From contig JAOZFN010000011.1 in assembly GCA_027492205.1 (NCBI GenBank), forward strand, positions 62,001-126,000: 64,000 bases of DNA. The letters run 5' to 3'. Of this stretch, positions 5,404-60,250 are shown in pieces. Each line of letters opens with the position of its first letter. The stretch's first letter is position 1. A program made the translations under genes and the position numbers. Source of the DNA: Thermoproteota archaeon (lineage in GTDB: Archaea > Korarchaeota > Korarchaeia > Korarchaeales > Korarchaeaceae). Below the pieces are notes generated by a model. The model did no database searches, was not told the origin of the DNA, and saw only the letters and a list, made by a program, of their open reading frames with translations.

Positions 5404-6588
5404 TTACAGGAGCTTGAGGGCCTCCTCCGCCAGCTTCTCGCCAAGCTCGCGCGCAGCCCTGAGGTCCTCGTCCCCCGGCGTCCCCCTGACGGCCAGCTCC
5501 CCGACTATCGGCAGCTTCAGCCCCTCTACCACCTCCCTGACGACCCTGAGCGCCCCGCCGCCCCACCCGTAGGAGCCCAGGAGCGCCACTACCTTGTTCT
5601 TGGGCTTGTACTCCGAGAGCAGGTCGAGGTAGAAGGTCACCCCAAGGAAGGGCCTGGCGTTGTGGGTGCTCGACGCTATGACCAGCGCGGCCGACTCCAG
5701 CGTCTCCGAAAGGAGGTCGTCGTAGTCGGCCTCCGCCGTGTCCATGGCCACGACCTCGAACCCCTTGCCCCTCAGACCCTCTGCCGCGGCCTCCGCGAGC
5801 CTCTGCGTGCGCTCGTACTGGCTGCCAAGCACTATCAGGGCCCTCTTGAGGGGGGTCCAGGACGTCCATCTCTCGTAGGTCTTCAGGACGGACTCGACGT
5901 CCCTGTGGAGGGCCCCGTGTCCCGGCGCTATGAGCCTCGGAGAGATCTCCCTGACCTTGGCCACCGCCTTGGCCACCATGGCCGAGTAGACCATCAGGAT
6001 GGAGGAGTAGTAGTCCCTCAGCTCGAAGCCACCCGGGTCCTCGTCGTGGTAGACGGCCGCGCTGGCCCCGTGCGAGCCGAAGAGGTCGCACGTGAAGAGG
6101 ACCCCCTCCTCCTCAAGCAGCGTCATCATGGTGTCTGGCCAGTGCACGAAGGGGGCCGAGACGAACCTGAGGGTCCTGTCCCCGAGGCTGATCGCCTCCC
6201 CGTCCGCCACGGGCTTAGACCTGTCGGCCGGGTAGCTGGAGAGGGAGGTCCCTATCTGAATCGCCTGCCTCGTGCCCACCAGCCTCGCCTTGGGGGCCCT
6301 CCTCAAGACCTCGGCGAGGGTGCCCGAGTGGTCGGGCTCCGTGTGCTGAGAGACGACCAGGGTGATCTCTGAGGGATCCACAACCGTCTCGAGCGCCTCC
6401 CAGAACGCGTCCGAGACCCGCTCATCGGCGCCGTCTATGAGAGCAACTCCCTCAGACCCCTTGACCACGTAGAAGTTATAGGACGTTCCCTTTGGGATGG
6501 GCCAGAAGTTCTCGAACCTCTTGAACGTGGTGTTGAGAACCCTGACGAGGGTGACCCCCGGGGCGACCTCGGCCTTGATCCAGCCCAA
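5404..6588 (-). CDS. fprA: Flavodiiron protein (F420H2 oxidase / A-type flavoprotein)
   Basis: The 394-residue protein has an N-terminal metallo-beta-lactamase diiron domain and a C-terminal flavodoxin domain. Diiron ligands are visible: HTEPDH (His82, Glu84, Asp86, His87), His149 in FVHWPD, Asp168 in TCDLFG and a His in APGHGALH near 225. The flavodoxin part begins near residue 250 with LIVLGSQYERTQ. Family members reduce O2 to water (or NO to N2O) in the cytoplasm; in methanogens F420H2 is the donor. The TTG start is supported by a GGTGG site and a TATA-like element at 6617-6631 shared with the divergent sfsA. With the bd oxidase and peroxiredoxin nearby it points to oxygen defence. Confidence 0.93.
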   Translation of the reverse strand: MGWIKAEVAPGVTLVRVLNTTFKRFENFWPIPKGTSYNFYVVKGSEGVALIDGADERVSDAFWEALETVVDPSEITLVVSQHTEPDHSGTLAEVLRRAPKARLVGTRQAIQIGTSLSSYPADRSKPVADGEAISLGDRTLRFVSAPFVHWPDTMMTLLEEEGVLFTCDLFGSHGASAAVYHDEDPGGFELRDYYSSILMVYSAMVAKAVAKVREISPRLIAPGHGALHRDVESVLKTYERWTSWTPLKRALIVLGSQYERTQRLAEAAAEGLRGKGFEVVAMDTAEADYDDLLSETLESAALVIASSTHNARPFLGVTFYLDLLSEYKPKNKVVALLGSYGWGGGALRVVREVVEGLKLPIVGELAVRGTPGDEDLRAARELGEKLAEEALKLL

Positions 6589-6616
6589 GCTTCCACCGGG
6601 CGTCGGAGGCCGACAA

Positions 6617-7382: not shown

Positions 7383-7733
7383 ATGCGTGACTTGAAGGAG
7401 GCATTTGAGGAGGCCGTGAGGGGGTTCAACGAGTTCCGCAGTCCGGAGGCCGTGGCAGAGCTGATCCACGTTGAGGGAGACGTCGCGGTCGTCAGGATGA
7501 GGGGCCCCTTCTGCGCCTCCTGCGGCCTCTACGACTACTTCGAGGACCTCGCCTGGAGGGTCCGAGATCAGCTGGGCGACGAGGTCGTCGTCGAGGCCGT
7601 TGAAAGGGTGGGGCAGGATGAGTACCTGGCCCTCTACAGGGTGGGGGAGAGGGCGAAGGCCCTCAGGGAGCCCGAGGGGCTGACGGCCCACTTCGGACCG
7701 GGGAGGGTTGAGGACCAGCCCCGGAGGCGATAG
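7383..7733 (+). CDS. Small CxxC-containing protein of unknown function
   Basis: A 116-residue soluble protein. The single clear motif is GPFCASCGLYDYFED, a CxxC pair in the middle of the chain, followed by predicted helix and strands (EVVVEAVERV). It could bind metal or an Fe-S cluster, or act in redox; a NifU-like fold is possible but not shown. A TATA-like cttattaa at about 7353-7360 lies 25-30 bases before ATG 7383, consistent with a leaderless mRNA. It stands between sfsA and the bd-oxidase genes, with its own promoter on each side. Confidence 0.65.
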   Translation: MRDLKEAFEEAVRGFNEFRSPEAVAELIHVEGDVAVVRMRGPFCASCGLYDYFEDLAWRVRDQLGDEVVVEAVERVGQDEYLALYRVGERAKALREPEGLTAHFGPGRVEDQPRRR

Positions 7734-7748
7734 GCCCGGGAACGGGTT

Positions 7749-7787
7749 GGTTTGTAATTCTAACCGGATTAATTTAAATTAGAAACC
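7749..7787 (+). promoter_or_regulatory. cydA promoter with imperfect inverted repeat
   Basis: The arms ggtttgtaatt (7749-7759) and aattagaaacc (7777-7787) are reverse complements at 10 of 11 positions and enclose the TATA-like ttaatttaaatt (7769-7780). This fits an operator for a regulator that senses oxygen or redox state, but the regulator is not identified. Confidence 0.5.
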
Positions 7788-7813
7788 AGAGAGGCACGCG
7801 AACAGAGGTTGCC

Positions 7814-9433
7814 ATGCCGGGCCTCGTCGATCTGATCCTGGAGTGGCTCAGGGGATACCCGGCCGGGTACGAGCGCCTCCTGTCCATGATAGGCATAGAG
7901 GTCCACTGGGCCATACTGCAGTACGTCCTCGGCCTGCCGCTCCTGGCGGTCCTGGCCGAGGCCATTTGGCTGCGGACGGGGAACGAGCACTGGAAGAGGC
8001 TGTCCAGGAACTTGGCCAAGGGCTTCGCGGTGGTCTTCGCGGTTGGCGCCGCCTCCGGCACGGCGTCGGAGTTCGGGCTCATACTGCTATGGCCCAACCT
8101 CACCGAGGCGGCCGGCAGGTACATCTACTTCCCGCTCTACCTAGAGATCTTCGCCTTCATCACGGAGGTCGTCTTCATCTACCTCTACTTCTACGCCGAC
8201 GGCAGGGTCTCCCGCAAGGCGCACCTGCTCATCGGGGTGCTCGCCCTGGCCGGCGCCTGGTTCTCCGGGGCCATGATCTTGAGCGTCAACTCCTTCATGC
8301 AGTCTCCGGCAAACGTCTTGGCTAACTACGACCCGACGACGGGATCCTGGGCGCCGCCGGAGGTGCTCCTCTTCGTCCCCACTCAGGTGGCCCAGGCCAT
8401 CGACGCCCAGAAGCTCGCGTCGGTCGGGGGGAAGATCCTGGAGAGCGGTGCCGACTACGTCTTGGTCTCGCTGCCGGCCGGGCTGGTCAGGGCGCTGATG
8501 GGCCAGGCCTTCGCCGGCTACACCGTCGGCGAGAGCCTGCTCGCGGCGGTCGCGAGACCCGAGGCGGCCCAGGCGCTCGCGTCGGTCCCGCTCAAGAGCG
8601 TCCTCGACTCGATAGTGGCCAACACCGTCAGGCACGCCGGCGTGTACACGATCACCTTCAAGTCCGGGACGTACGTGGCCACCTTCGTGCACTCCATAGG
8701 CGCCGCGGTGACCGTCTCGGCCTTCACGGTCATGGGCGCCTACGCGCTGAGGCTCCTCAGGACTCCCAAGGACGATCCGGACAGGGAGTACTTCAGAGGG
8801 GCATTCAAGTTCGCCGCCGTGGTGGCCCTGGTGGCCGTGGCCATCCAGGGGACCGGTTCCGGCCACGCGATGGGGGCCGCCGTCGCCGAGTTCAATCCCG
8901 AGAAGTTCGCCGCCATGGAGGGGACCAGCGAGCAGATAACGAGCCTGCCGGCCTTGATCCACGCCGAAGGGCTGGTCCACGGGAAGCTCATGCCGCTTCT
9001 GGCTTACGGGAGCACGGGCGCAGTTATCCCGTCCTACGACCTCATCCAGTCCGACTTCAGGCCTCCCCTGGTCGTGCACTACCTCTACTACACCAAGATC
9101 GGGCTGGGGGTCCTCCTCGGACTCGTGGCCCTCCTCGCGGTCGCATACCTCAGGAGGTCCGCCGAACCGCCGGGCTGGGCCCTCAACCTCTCCGCCGCCT
9201 CGCCGGTCCTGGCGCAGGTGGTTAGCTTCCTCGGGTGGGCGGTCAGGGAGATAGGGAGGAAGCCCTGGGCCATCTACGGGATCATGGACGTCCAGACCGA
9301 GCTCACCGTGAACCCGCCGCCGACGTGGCAGCTGATGCTAGTCGCCGCCTACCTAGCCGCCCTGCTGGCGCTCCTGTTCGCCGTGGTCTACGTCTACCTC
9401 TGGAAGAGGGAGGAGAGTGGGGAGGTGAGCTGA
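7814..9433 (+). CDS. cydA: Cytochrome bd-type quinol oxidase, catalytic subunit CydA
   Basis: A 539-residue membrane protein with about nine helices that transfers electrons from quinol to O2. Family landmarks: His in IGIEVHWAILQY (haem b595 ligand in E. coli numbering H19), an acidic SEFGLILLWPN segment, FSGAMILSVNSFMQSP, His in TFVHSIGAA (H186, b558 ligand) and GWAVREIGRKPW (the E445/R448/W451 site). At the place of Met393, the other b558 ligand, an ungapped fit to the GxG that follows gives Lys (YYTKIGLG). The loop between helices is short, so there is no long Q-loop. It ends 3 bases before the partner gene. The ATG at 7814 follows a TATA-like box by about 35 bases. Confidence 0.92.
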   Translation: MPGLVDLILEWLRGYPAGYERLLSMIGIEVHWAILQYVLGLPLLAVLAEAIWLRTGNEHWKRLSRNLAKGFAVVFAVGAASGTASEFGLILLWPNLTEAAGRYIYFPLYLEIFAFITEVVFIYLYFYADGRVSRKAHLLIGVLALAGAWFSGAMILSVNSFMQSPANVLANYDPTTGSWAPPEVLLFVPTQVAQAIDAQKLASVGGKILESGADYVLVSLPAGLVRALMGQAFAGYTVGESLLAAVARPEAAQALASVPLKSVLDSIVANTVRHAGVYTITFKSGTYVATFVHSIGAAVTVSAFTVMGAYALRLLRTPKDDPDREYFRGAFKFAAVVALVAVAIQGTGSGHAMGAAVAEFNPEKFAAMEGTSEQITSLPALIHAEGLVHGKLMPLLAYGSTGAVIPSYDLIQSDFRPPLVVHYLYYTKIGLGVLLGLVALLAVAYLRRSAEPPGWALNLSAASPVLAQVVSFLGWAVREIGRKPWAIYGIMDVQTELTVNPPPTWQLMLVAAYLAALLALLFAVVYVYLWKREESGEVS

Positions 9434-56408: not shown

Positions 56409-56564
56409 CTCGACAGCGGGCCCTCAATTCAAGGATTTGAACTTATCGCGGCGCGAATCGCCGAGCGACCTTCCGACCCCTCCGCTCTGCGCTGGAACGG
56501 CTGGAGGCTGCACACCGCCGCGAACGAATATTAGATAGCTGTGGAGGCTGCCTCGGGGGAGAAT

Positions 56565-57731
56565 ATGAGGAGGAAGGCCGTAGCGGCCGCGCTGGCGATC
56601 GGCGTGGTCCTGTCTCTCCTCCCCGTGTATCAGTCTCAGGCCTGGTGGTCAGACGGGCACAGGCTCATGACCACTGAGGCCGTCAAGCTCATACCAGACC
56701 CCGAGTGGCGGCAGTTCTTCGAGCACTACGCCTACTTCCTCAACGAGACGTGCGTCTGGCCGGACTCTATCTACAAGTCCGAGGACCCGATGGAGGCGCC
56801 CAGGCACTACTACGACCTGGAGATCCCTCCGTCGCAGAGGAAGTATGAGGACGGAGTCCTACCCCAGGCGGTCCACAACTACACTATAGCCATGGTCGAG
56901 GCCCTGAAGAGGGGAGACTGGTTCGAGGCCCTGGCTCTGGCCGGTAGGGTGGCTCACTACGTCGAGGACGCCCACCAGCCCTATCACGCTACCGTTAACT
57001 ATAACCCAATGGATAAGCACGCCCTCGCCGACTCCCTGGTCGAGAAGCACTGGAGTGAGCTCACTCTTGACCTGTCCGCCCCGATCGAGCCCGTCGACAA
57101 CCTCACTCAGTTCGCATTCGAGATTATCGTCGACAGCAACCACAAGGTGGCGAGGCTCAACGCCACCCTCATCGGGGACCCGAATGACCCAAGCGACGAC
57201 AGGGAGTGGAGTGACGACCTGAGGGACTTGATCAGCGAGCAAGCCAGCAGGGCCATAGTGGCCGTAGCGAGGGTATGGTGGACGGCGATCACGCTGGCTG
57301 GGGTCGAGCCTCCCGACCTGTCACAGTCCTACTCCATCAGTGTGGACCTCGCCGCGCCCGACAGGGCCAAGACAAGGCTGCTGGCCGAGGCCACCGTACT
57401 TGACGGCCTCGAGATACCGCTAGACGCTGAGGTGACCTGGACGTTCGGGCAGGATTCCGGCGAGGCCAGGAGGGCGGATGTGGGGCTCTACAAGATCAGA
57501 ATAGACAGCGAGGTACTCCAGAAGTACGCCGGTCAGACGGTCACGCTGACCGTCAAGGCCGCCAAGGAGGGCTACGGCACGACCGAGGCCTCCGCTCAGG
57601 TATACGTCGAGCCGCTGGAGATGCCGACTCCACAGCCCTCTGGGCCTTCCCTGGAGCTCAAGTGGGTGACCCTGATAGCGGTAGTGGTCGTCGCGGCCGC
57701 GGTGGTGATACTCCTCCTGAGGAGGAGGTGA
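56565..57731 (+). CDS. Zinc-dependent phospholipase C / S1-P1 nuclease-like secreted protein
   Basis: A 388-residue protein. A signal peptide ends before Trp27; mature N-terminal WWSDGH has the Trp and His32 that ligate zinc in this family. Further ligands: Asp67 (VWPDSI), His81 (RHYYD), His131 and Asp135 (AHYVEDAHQPYH), and His162 (KHWSE). That trinuclear-zinc set is that of phospholipase C and S1-P1 nucleases. A C-terminal beta domain (LEIPLDAEVTWTFG) and a transmembrane helix (LIAVVVVAAAVVILLL) hold it at the cell surface. ATG 56565 follows GGGGGAG; GTG 56541 is the alternative. Confidence 0.9.
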   Translation: MRRKAVAAALAIGVVLSLLPVYQSQAWWSDGHRLMTTEAVKLIPDPEWRQFFEHYAYFLNETCVWPDSIYKSEDPMEAPRHYYDLEIPPSQRKYEDGVLPQAVHNYTIAMVEALKRGDWFEALALAGRVAHYVEDAHQPYHATVNYNPMDKHALADSLVEKHWSELTLDLSAPIEPVDNLTQFAFEIIVDSNHKVARLNATLIGDPNDPSDDREWSDDLRDLISEQASRAIVAVARVWWTAITLAGVEPPDLSQSYSISVDLAAPDRAKTRLLAEATVLDGLEIPLDAEVTWTFGQDSGEARRADVGLYKIRIDSEVLQKYAGQTVTLTVKAAKEGYGTTEASAQVYVEPLEMPTPQPSGPSLELKWVTLIAVVVVAAAVVILLLRRR

Positions 57732-57800: not shown

Positions 57801-58196
57801 TCACCTGGATCTGGATAGCTTGGATAGGAACTTCTGCCTGTTCACGATGAACCGTTCGTGGGTCCCCTCCCCGACCAGCGTGTCGCCGTAGAGGCACTTG
57901 ACCTCGAAGACGAGCCTCCTCCTATCGACCTCAACGAGCTTGGCCTTCACGGTCACCTCTCCGCCCACCGGCGTCGGCGCGAGGTGTCTGACGTTCACTG
58001 CGGTTCCGACGGTCGTCTCCTCCGGCGGCAGGTGCGGCTGCACGAGGTCCCTCGCCGTTGTCTCCATGAGGGCGATCATGGAAGGCGTGGAGAGCACGGA
58101 GACGTCGCCGCTCCCGATGAACGAGGCCGCCATGTCCCCGGTGACCTTGAATCTCCTCTCAGCCTCCATTCCCACCTTGATTCTGCTCTCGACCAT
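57801..58196 (-). CDS. Hotdog-fold thioesterase (FlK-like)
   Basis: A 131-residue hotdog protein: GSGDVSVLSTPSMIALMETT, then VGTAVNVRHLAPTPVGGEVT, VKAKLVEVDRRRLVFEVKC, and GEGTHERFIVNR. This pattern (VxxTPxxIxxMExxx...VGTxVxxxHLAxTPVG) is the acyl-CoA thioesterase group with fluoroacetyl-CoA thioesterase FlK. In archaea it should act on acyl-CoA. ATG 58196 is chosen over a far upstream in-frame codon that would overlap the divergent kinase gene. Confidence 0.9.
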   Translation of the reverse strand: MVESRIKVGMEAERRFKVTGDMAASFIGSGDVSVLSTPSMIALMETTARDLVQPHLPPEETTVGTAVNVRHLAPTPVGGEVTVKAKLVEVDRRRLVFEVKCLYGDTLVGEGTHERFIVNRQKFLSKLSRSR

Positions 58197-58257
58197 TAGG
58201 CTCCCCCGCGGCCGGTGGGGAAATGTGAAATAAGCTTGCCACCGGGAGCGCCCGCGG

Positions 58258-59022
58258 ATGCCGAGAGTCACGGCGACTTTCGTCAAGGTGGGAGGGTCCA
58301 TCATCACCGTGAAGGACGCCCCTGAGCCCACCCTCAGGAGGTCCGTGATCGCCGACCTAGTCAAGGAGGTGGCCGAGGTATACTCGGAGGGCGAGCCTCT
58401 GATCCTCGCGAACGGCGCGGGGAGCTTTGGGCACCCTCTGGCCAAGAGGGCGGGGCTGGACAGGGGCTTGCTGGAGGGGAAGGAACTACCGTCGGCCCTG
58501 ACCGCTCAGTCCGCCCTGAGGCTGAACTTTACGATAGTTGAGGGGCTCCTAGAGCAGGGGGTCCCGGCAATATCCTTCTCCCCGCGCTCCTACGTCTACG
58601 GAACCGACTCCGGATGGGAGGCCGAGATCACACCCATGAGGATGGCCCTCGAGAGGGGTTTCGTTCCGGTCACTTTCGGGGATGTGGTCATGCACCAGAC
58701 CAGGGGAGCGGCCATATTTTCGGCGGATGACGCTCCCGTAATTCTGGCACCCCTCATCAGGCGGGCTGTGTACCTAGTCGACGTCCCGGGCGTGCTGGGT
58801 CCCGACGGCAGGGTCTTGGAGACCGCCAGCCCAGAGGTTCTAGAATTCGCGGGCGGCTCCGGCAGAGTGGACGTCACCGGAGGGATGGCCGAGAAGCTCA
58901 GGAAGGGATTCAGGCTGGCGTCCAGTGGGATAGAGGTCAGGGTGGCCGGCTATGCCTCTTCAGGCGACCTGAAGAGGGCTCTCGCGGGAGAGGCTGGCAC
59001 TCTCCTCTTGGCCGAAGGGTGA
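58258..59022 (+). CDS. ipk: Isopentenyl phosphate kinase
   Basis: A 254-residue amino-acid-kinase-fold enzyme of the archaeal mevalonate pathway: TFVKVGGSIITVKD at the start, ILANGAGSFGHPLA with the catalytic His59, GIPAISF-like segment AISFSPRSYVYG, ITPMRMALERGFVPVTFGDV, SADDAPVILAPLI, and GVLGPDGR...VDVTGGMAEKLR. It phosphorylates isopentenyl phosphate to isopentenyl diphosphate with ATP. ATG 58258 lies about 25 bases after gaaataagc (58228-58236), a leaderless start. HMG-CoA reductase is 1.3 kb away. Confidence 0.95.
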   Translation: MPRVTATFVKVGGSIITVKDAPEPTLRRSVIADLVKEVAEVYSEGEPLILANGAGSFGHPLAKRAGLDRGLLEGKELPSALTAQSALRLNFTIVEGLLEQGVPAISFSPRSYVYGTDSGWEAEITPMRMALERGFVPVTFGDVVMHQTRGAAIFSADDAPVILAPLIRRAVYLVDVPGVLGPDGRVLETASPEVLEFAGGSGRVDVTGGMAEKLRKGFRLASSGIEVRVAGYASSGDLKRALAGEAGTLLLAEG

Positions 59023-59024
59023 GC

Positions 59025-59874
59025 TCAGCGGGTATCCAGCTTGCCGTAGGGGCACACCGCCATGCAGGTGGAGCAGGACGCTCCATTCTCGCACCAGTAG
59101 AGGTAGCACCTCTCCGGGTCAATGTACCACTTCAGGGCCCCCGGGTTGTTCGACTTGGTCGGCCCCTCTAACGTGGGCTCATCGTCCTTCGAGATGGCTC
59201 CGACCTCGCAGCTCTCCGCGCAGAGCTTGCACCTCCTGCAGAACTCCCTGACGCCGAACTCGATCGGGCTGTCGGGCTCCATCGGGAGGTCGGTGAACAC
59301 CTTGCAGAGCCTTACCCTCGGGCCAAACTGCGGAGTTATCAGCAGCCCGTTCCTGCCCAGCTCTCCTAGACCGGCGTCTATAGCCAAGGGGATGTTCAGG
59401 GCGGTGTCGTTCCTCGACTCGATGGCCCCGTAGCCGAGAGACCTGATGAACTCACCCACGCACGAAAGGAGGAATACCAGCTTGGAGTAGCCCAGGCCGG
59501 TAGCCGCCTCGGCTCCGAGGGCAGGTGAGGTCTCTATGGCCTCCCTGTCCATGGCCACGGCCATGACGACGACGTAGTCGAACCCCTCAGGTATGTCCGC
59601 GTCTTCATAAACCCAGCAGGAGGGAGTCGGGAGCCCTCGAAGCCCTGGCTAGCGCATACTCTGGGAGGGAGTAACCCTCCCTTTCCTCCTCCAGGATCCG
59701 CGGAATCTCGGCGGCGAACCACCGCCTGTACCCGTCCCACGAGCGGTCCCACTCCACCCTCCTGAACACGGTCATGCTGCTCCTGAACCTCCTTATTCGG
59801 CTGAGATCCAGAACGTACGGCGGCTGGTTCGCTTTCATCACGCGAAACCACGTCGTGCGACTGGCGTCTCCCAA
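59025..59874 (-). pseudogene. Reductive-dehalogenase-like Fe-S/cobalamin protein, frameshifted
   Basis: Two frames together make one protein of about 283 residues. The N-terminal part (59874 down to about 59625) has MKANQPPYVLDLSRIRRF, FRRVEWDRSW and YSLPEYALARAS; the other frame carries on from about 59640 with WVYEDADIPEGFDYVVV and then the RdhA body: SRNDTALNIPLAIDAGLGEL, PQFGPRVRLCKVFTDLPMEP, FCRRCKLCAESCEVGAIS (first 4Fe-4S), KSNNPGALKWYIDPERC and SCSTCMAVCP (second 4Fe-4S). Homologous frames overlap near 59610-59650, where a one-base change would restore one frame. No TAT signal is seen, so it would be cytoplasmic; the substrate may be a halogenated or methoxy compound, or epoxyqueuosine-like. 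TTG 59874 follows a TATA-like ggtttatttg. Confidence 0.75.
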
Positions 59875-59956
59875 CGTAGAACCCAGGGTCCTTCCCCCAG
59901 ATCAAATAAACCGTGAGCATCCGACCCCGGCGGCCGTTCTCGGGCGCGGCCGACTA

Positions 59957-60250
59957 TTAGGGATCCTCTCGTATCTGCCCCGGCCCTAAGAGAATGTCCC
60001 TGAGCATGACGGTGAGCGGGTGGTCGCTGATCCTTATCAGGACGACCCTTCCCACCCTCCTCACGTCCACGAGCCCGAGTTCCCTGAGTCTATCTACATG
60101 CGACTTGGTCGATTCGTAGCTGAGTCCCGACTCCCTGGCAAGGCGGCTCATGTTGACCTGCCCCTTCCTAGCGAGCACCCTGAGTATCCTAATCCTCCCC
60201 CTGCTGCCCAGGGTCTCCTCGATCAGCTCGTCCCAGGTCATATCCTCCAT
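59957..60250 (-). CDS. Winged-helix (ArsR/MarR-like) transcription regulator
   Basis: A 97-residue DNA-binding protein: GSRGRIRILRVLARKGQVNM, then SRLARESGLSYESTKSHVDR and LRELGLVDVRRVGRVVLIRI, the helix-turn-helix and wing. It lies 37 bases after hmgA, on the same strand, and before the dehalogenase-like gene, and could regulate either. ATG 60250 is taken; ATG 60241 is an alternative. Confidence 0.87.
   Translation of the reverse strand: MEDMTWDELIEETLGSRGRIRILRVLARKGQVNMSRLARESGLSYESTKSHVDRLRELGLVDVRRVGRVVLIRISDHPLTVMLRDILLGPGQIREDP

Follow-up and report, generated by a model that had tools for sequence, protein, structure and literature searches.

The window, by which we mean the whole 64,000-nucleotide stretch of DNA that was analysed, contains an RdhA-family (reductive dehalogenase) gene that lies in two reading frames (Table 1), and its host is very probably a korarchaeon from the family of Korarchaeum cryptofilum, although from a different genus. 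The C-terminal piece includes an open reading frame of 179 aa (59025-59564, minus strand), with the same frame staying open upstream past 59636, and it is here that AGLGELGR, PQFGPRVR and VFTDLP, together with AGLGELGRNGLLITPQFGPRVRLCKVFTDLP and two Cys-rich 4Fe-4S motifs, are all found, in agreement with the RdhA-like pattern described in the original prediction, which had also correctly placed an N-terminal part in a second frame. When the intact archaeal RdhA L035 was compared with the window genome, its residues 148-340 matched 59040-59618 (70% identity, 4e-96) and its residues 7-82 matched 59635-59862 (45% identity, 4e-16); these two spots were the sole strong matches in the genome and stood in the expected order, residues 83-147 having no counterpart, a result far beyond chance expectation. 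A profile of 21 intact relatives gave the N-terminal piece 64.8 bits, and the C-terminal piece scored 363 bits with the clade profile. Neither piece contains an extra stop, several of which the original prediction had named as grounds for abandoning it. Inside the N-terminal piece there is also an imperfect inverted repeat of 18 nt (59714-59731 and 59815-59832, 78% complementary), possibly due to chance.

Table 1. Coordinates of the rdhA remnant, its motifs and its immediate neighbours within the window.
Feature	Position	Strand	Remarks
rdhA pseudogene, whole remnant	59025..59874	-	RdhA-family gene in two reading frames
N-terminal piece, own frame	59605..59874	-	RdhA similarity 59635-59862: PPYVLDLSRIRRF...YSLPEYALARASRAPDSLL
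C-terminal piece, second frame	59025..59615	-	Most of the corrinoid-binding core and both Fe-S motifs
Tyr codon, aligned with PceA Tyr246 (LGYSK)	59487..59489	-	Alignment of PceA with an intact relative and the window copy
Asn codon, aligned with PceA Asn272 (ESRND)	59409..59411	-	Same alignments
Arg codon, aligned with PceA Arg305 (GPRVR)	59310..59312	-	Same alignments
First 4Fe-4S motif, CRRCKLCAESC	59208..59240	-	Fer4_7 and Fer4_16 matches, alignment
Second Cys-rich 4Fe-4S motif, CYLYWCENGASCSTCMAVC	59052..59108	-	Fer4_7/Fer4_16 matches, alignment
Deletion junction with frame change	59613..59620	-	Left ...DSLL, right WVYEDADIPEGF...; length inferred from intact relatives
Small winged-helix regulator gene, intact, just upstream	59957..60250	-	Syntenic in sister genome; same strand as rdhA
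Isopentenyl phosphate kinase gene, intact, convergent	58258..59022	+	Marks the shared locus in sister genome

Motifs and neighbourhood of the remnant

The catalytic Tyr and the active-site Asn and Arg of RdhA, whose roles in PceA have been described for Tyr246, Asn272 and Arg305 (PMC5500849), are all kept in the window copy when it is aligned to PceA, and every one of the Fe-S cysteines in the two 4Fe-4S motifs near the C-terminus aligns with those of the relatives. A C-terminal truncation had been suspected from comparison with the distant relatives L002-L004, but the close relatives also stop about 5-30 residues past the last Cys motif, and so the short C-terminus is normal for the clade. 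As predicted, both pieces lack a TAT motif, nor can one be seen in the intact clade relatives. The adjacent reading frames, read by eye, encode the winged-helix regulator, HMG-CoA reductase and isopentenyl phosphate kinase, with no rdhB among them, such that both the TAT signal and the adjacent rdhB by which a respiratory (exported) RdhA is recognized are lacking. A conserved neighbourhood was looked for as well, but none of four window neighbours was found near 20 intact relatives. Both genomes of the genus lack the cobalamin synthase CobS; however, CobS is missing also from some genomes with an intact RdhA, which makes the lack of cofactor a possible reason for the loss.

Other features were noted on the same stretch and in the sister genome. 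A hotdog thioesterase at 57801-58199 (minus strand) matches the Pfam model FlK (fluoroacetyl-CoA-specific thioesterase) with 133 bits, a family name that need not imply a fluorinated substrate, and the product of 56541-57731 (plus strand) matches S1/P1 nuclease and zinc phospholipase C models and, read by eye, has hydrophobic ends resembling a signal sequence and a membrane anchor. The sister genome (G001) encodes a strong corrinoid-binding domain at C22:40700-41041 (L135; E 4e-30), and the window genome has no comparably strong match.

Family membership and archaeal relatives

Even on its own, the 59025-59564 reading frame scores 175.8 bits with the NCBIfam reductive dehalogenase model TIGR02486, above the cut-off of 160.35, whereas with the epoxyqueuosine reductase (QueG) model TIGR00276 it reaches 45 bits and falls far short of the cut-off of 200. 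This weak match, and the core fold that QueG and RdhA have in common, are what could be said for the locus being a relative of QueG instead of RdhA, a reading that we find hardly conceivable given the 70-75% identity of the window copy to archaeal RdhAs and its placement among them in the tree. That phylogeny with RdhA and QueG, which had been suggested as a check, consisted of 94 rows, was built by a quick search and has long outgroup branches, for which reason we rely on it solely for the position inside the clade: both genus copies fall inside a clade of 21 rows (SH-aLRT 99) made up of Bathyarchaeota RdhAs together with Methanomethylicota, Culexmicrobium and one Sigynarchaeota sequence, the nearest placement being beside L032 (SH-aLRT 84) and QueG lying far off. 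The predicted fold of an intact relative was also compared using Foldseek, where PceA gave TM scores of 0.75-0.81, NpRdhA 0.67-0.69 and QueG 0.37-0.45. Judged by its sequence, the window gene is a member of the reductive dehalogenase family and not a QueG.

Archaeal RdhA homologues, described as few in the original prediction, turn out to be more plentiful than that, since a scan for close relatives returned 80 loci of which well over half are archaeal (Bathyarchaeota, Lokiarchaeota, Thermoplasmatota, Theionarchaea and others). The Bipolaricaulota contig L080 carries two rdhA-like genes close by one another on one strand (5569-6603 and 7628-8635). Within the korarchaeal family, none of 22 genomes outside the genus has an RdhA over the cut-off, and this, combined with the nesting among Bathyarchaeota, suggests that the gene was transferred from Bathyarchaeota-like archaea into the stem lineage of the genus and was later lost.

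The internal deletion and the sister-species copy

In alignments with close intact relatives, the N-terminal piece stops at ...ASRAPDSLL and the C-terminal piece starts at WVYEDADIPEGF, and about 59 conserved residues, for which the relatives have GGFSW...MSxYVKRAAKLFGASLVGICKLNRD, are absent between them. By codon count the net loss is about 176 bp, which is not divisible by three, and hence a single deletion explains both the gap and the change of frame. The frameshift of the original prediction therefore holds in that the frame does change, but its cause is the loss of about 59 codons from within the gene, and a simple one-base frameshift is ruled out by the missing residues. In the model of the intact relative L034 (360 aa, mean pLDDT 91) the missing stretch corresponds to a helix (120-133) and a strand (138-143), the first of the corrinoid-binding core, and its counterpart in PceA is residues 142-172, which precede the main corrinoid-binding block. 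With these residues gone and the remainder in two frames, no single frame of the window copy encodes a complete corrinoid-binding core, and the copy would be a relic of an RdhA member and no working member.

The sister genome is the only other genome of the genus that was examined, and there too the gene sits between these neighbours, flanked by HMG-CoA reductase and the winged-helix regulator at one end and by isopentenyl phosphate kinase at the other; no second rdhA copy exists in either genome. This copy has two private 2-bp deletions and an internal deletion of its own that overlaps with, but differs from, that of the window copy, so that disabling lesions are confirmed outside the window assembly. 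A deletion ancestral to both species had been suspected, as the alignments diverge at the same base, but the sister copy keeps sequence that matches the segment expected next, FSDPREASAWVRRDTK, which resembles YDVDDPHEMSAYIK of the relative L032; the retained middle segment reads RHGFSDPREASAWVRRDTK and is followed by a jump to TLGAEAATG. The match of the retained segment is of moderate strength, with 1 of 500 dinucleotide shuffles as good, and a plain profile search of the piece was not significant. A foreign insert in the sister copy was also considered and set aside, no second copy of it being found in either genome. Given the different lesions in the two species, the gene seems to have been lost separately in each.

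The timing of these losses can be approached through the rates of change. Between the two copies, dN/dS is 0.52 for the C-terminal piece and 0.65 for the N-terminal piece, with values of 0.06, 0.09, 0.12 and 0.26 in four neighbouring genes. At 127 positions with a conservation of at least 90% in the intact relatives, 18 changes are common to both species, 9 are private to the sister copy, 3 positions differ in both and the window copy has no private change, which points to a very recent break in the window species and an earlier one in its sister, and bears out the recent pseudogene of the original prediction. Furthermore, the total divergence of the copies (6-10%) is lower than the silent divergence of the neighbours, and so drift has not acted throughout the period after the two species diverged. 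As a separate observation, the isopentenyl phosphate kinase gene (58258-59022, compared with L006:1923-2708) has a dS of 0.61 against 0.10-0.25 in its neighbours, a possible trace of local recombination or allele replacement.

Probable gain and later loss of a dehalogenase homologue

We favour, with a probability of roughly 90%, the explanation that the remnant is a recently inactivated pseudogene, that its intact form encoded a reductive dehalogenase homologue of the cytoplasmic type, dependent on a corrinoid and on Fe-S clusters, and that the gene was transferred in and then lost separately. A Korarchaeum-related archaeon probably obtained the gene from Bathyarchaeota-like archaea before the genus split into its two known species, and the intact ancestor would most likely have bound cobalamin and two 4Fe-4S clusters and carried out, in the cytoplasm, a dehalogenation or some comparable reduction. 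The gene of the window species would then have lost about 176 bp in one deletion, which took out the helix-strand unit that opens the corrinoid-binding core and threw the halves out of frame, and in the sister species the same gene would have been broken through other deletions and frameshifts. What is left in the window most likely yields no working enzyme.

Now considering that, its one deletion aside, the window copy is undecayed at conserved sites (0 as against 9 private changes), as if it had been constrained until very recently, one could propose that the gene is intact in the population and the deletion an assembler joint or a minority allele. We regard such an artefact or strain variant as unlikely, and the assembly error raised in the original prediction has lost ground accordingly: this gene is also broken in the sister genome, which is a separate assembly, there is no direct repeat of at least 10 nt in 59400-59900, and no long shared word appears to be available at the junction to collapse on, since the ICKLNRD expected before the right end differs from ASRAPDSLL. 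The open C-terminal piece with its unaltered conserved sites could also be taken to mean that a shortened gene is in use, either as a stand-alone Fe-S or half-core protein of 179-200 aa or as two pieces joined by frameshifting. This is highly improbable, because the corrinoid-binding core would be without its first helix and strand, frameshifting could not bring back the missing residues, and the equivalent piece of the sister species has a 2-bp deletion and broken motifs, such as AGLGELGR altered to AGLGKLGG. Very unlikely, too, is that the species separately lost overlapping parts of the corrinoid core and that the window copy kept its Fe-S half without change because this half is still useful, for example as a small Fe-S protein. 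The preferred reading, a transfer followed by separate losses, makes this a case of recent gene loss that is real but ordinary, in which a known family has left a pseudogene in a lineage that has received little study, in a hot-spring-type archaeon. It nevertheless provides a clear example from the Korarchaeota of a dehalogenase-type gene recently gained and lost, and surveys of rdhA presence or absence in archaeal MAGs should verify that the gene is whole.

Among known systems, QueG has a corrinoid-binding and Fe-S core in common with the family of the window gene but is distant from it in sequence, structure and tree. PceA from Sulfurospirillum multivorans (4uqu) and the tetrachloroethene reductive dehalogenase 8q4h serve in respiration and are exported, with a TAT signal and a partner in the membrane; they have the RdhA core fold, the equivalents of Tyr246, Asn272 and Arg305 and the two 4Fe-4S motifs in common with the window gene, although its intact relative is about 30% identical to them. 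Loki- and Thorarchaeota RdhAs have been published, and no signal peptide was reported for them (PMC6737245); in the tree, Lokiarchaeota sequences form a clade separate from that of the window copy. The putative korarchaeal RdhA PMB78244 is a hybrid type of 452 aa with three N-terminal membrane helices (PMC6797604), which the window gene does not have. Closest are the RdhAs of Bathyarchaeota (L032, M10_bin139; L035, CSMAG_546) and of Methanomethylicota/Culexmicrobium (L034, L037), with 70-75% identity over the C-terminal piece and the same short C-terminus, lack of a TAT signal and Fe-S motifs, except that these proteins are intact at about 340-380 aa, whereas the window copy is short of some 59 residues and divided between two frames.
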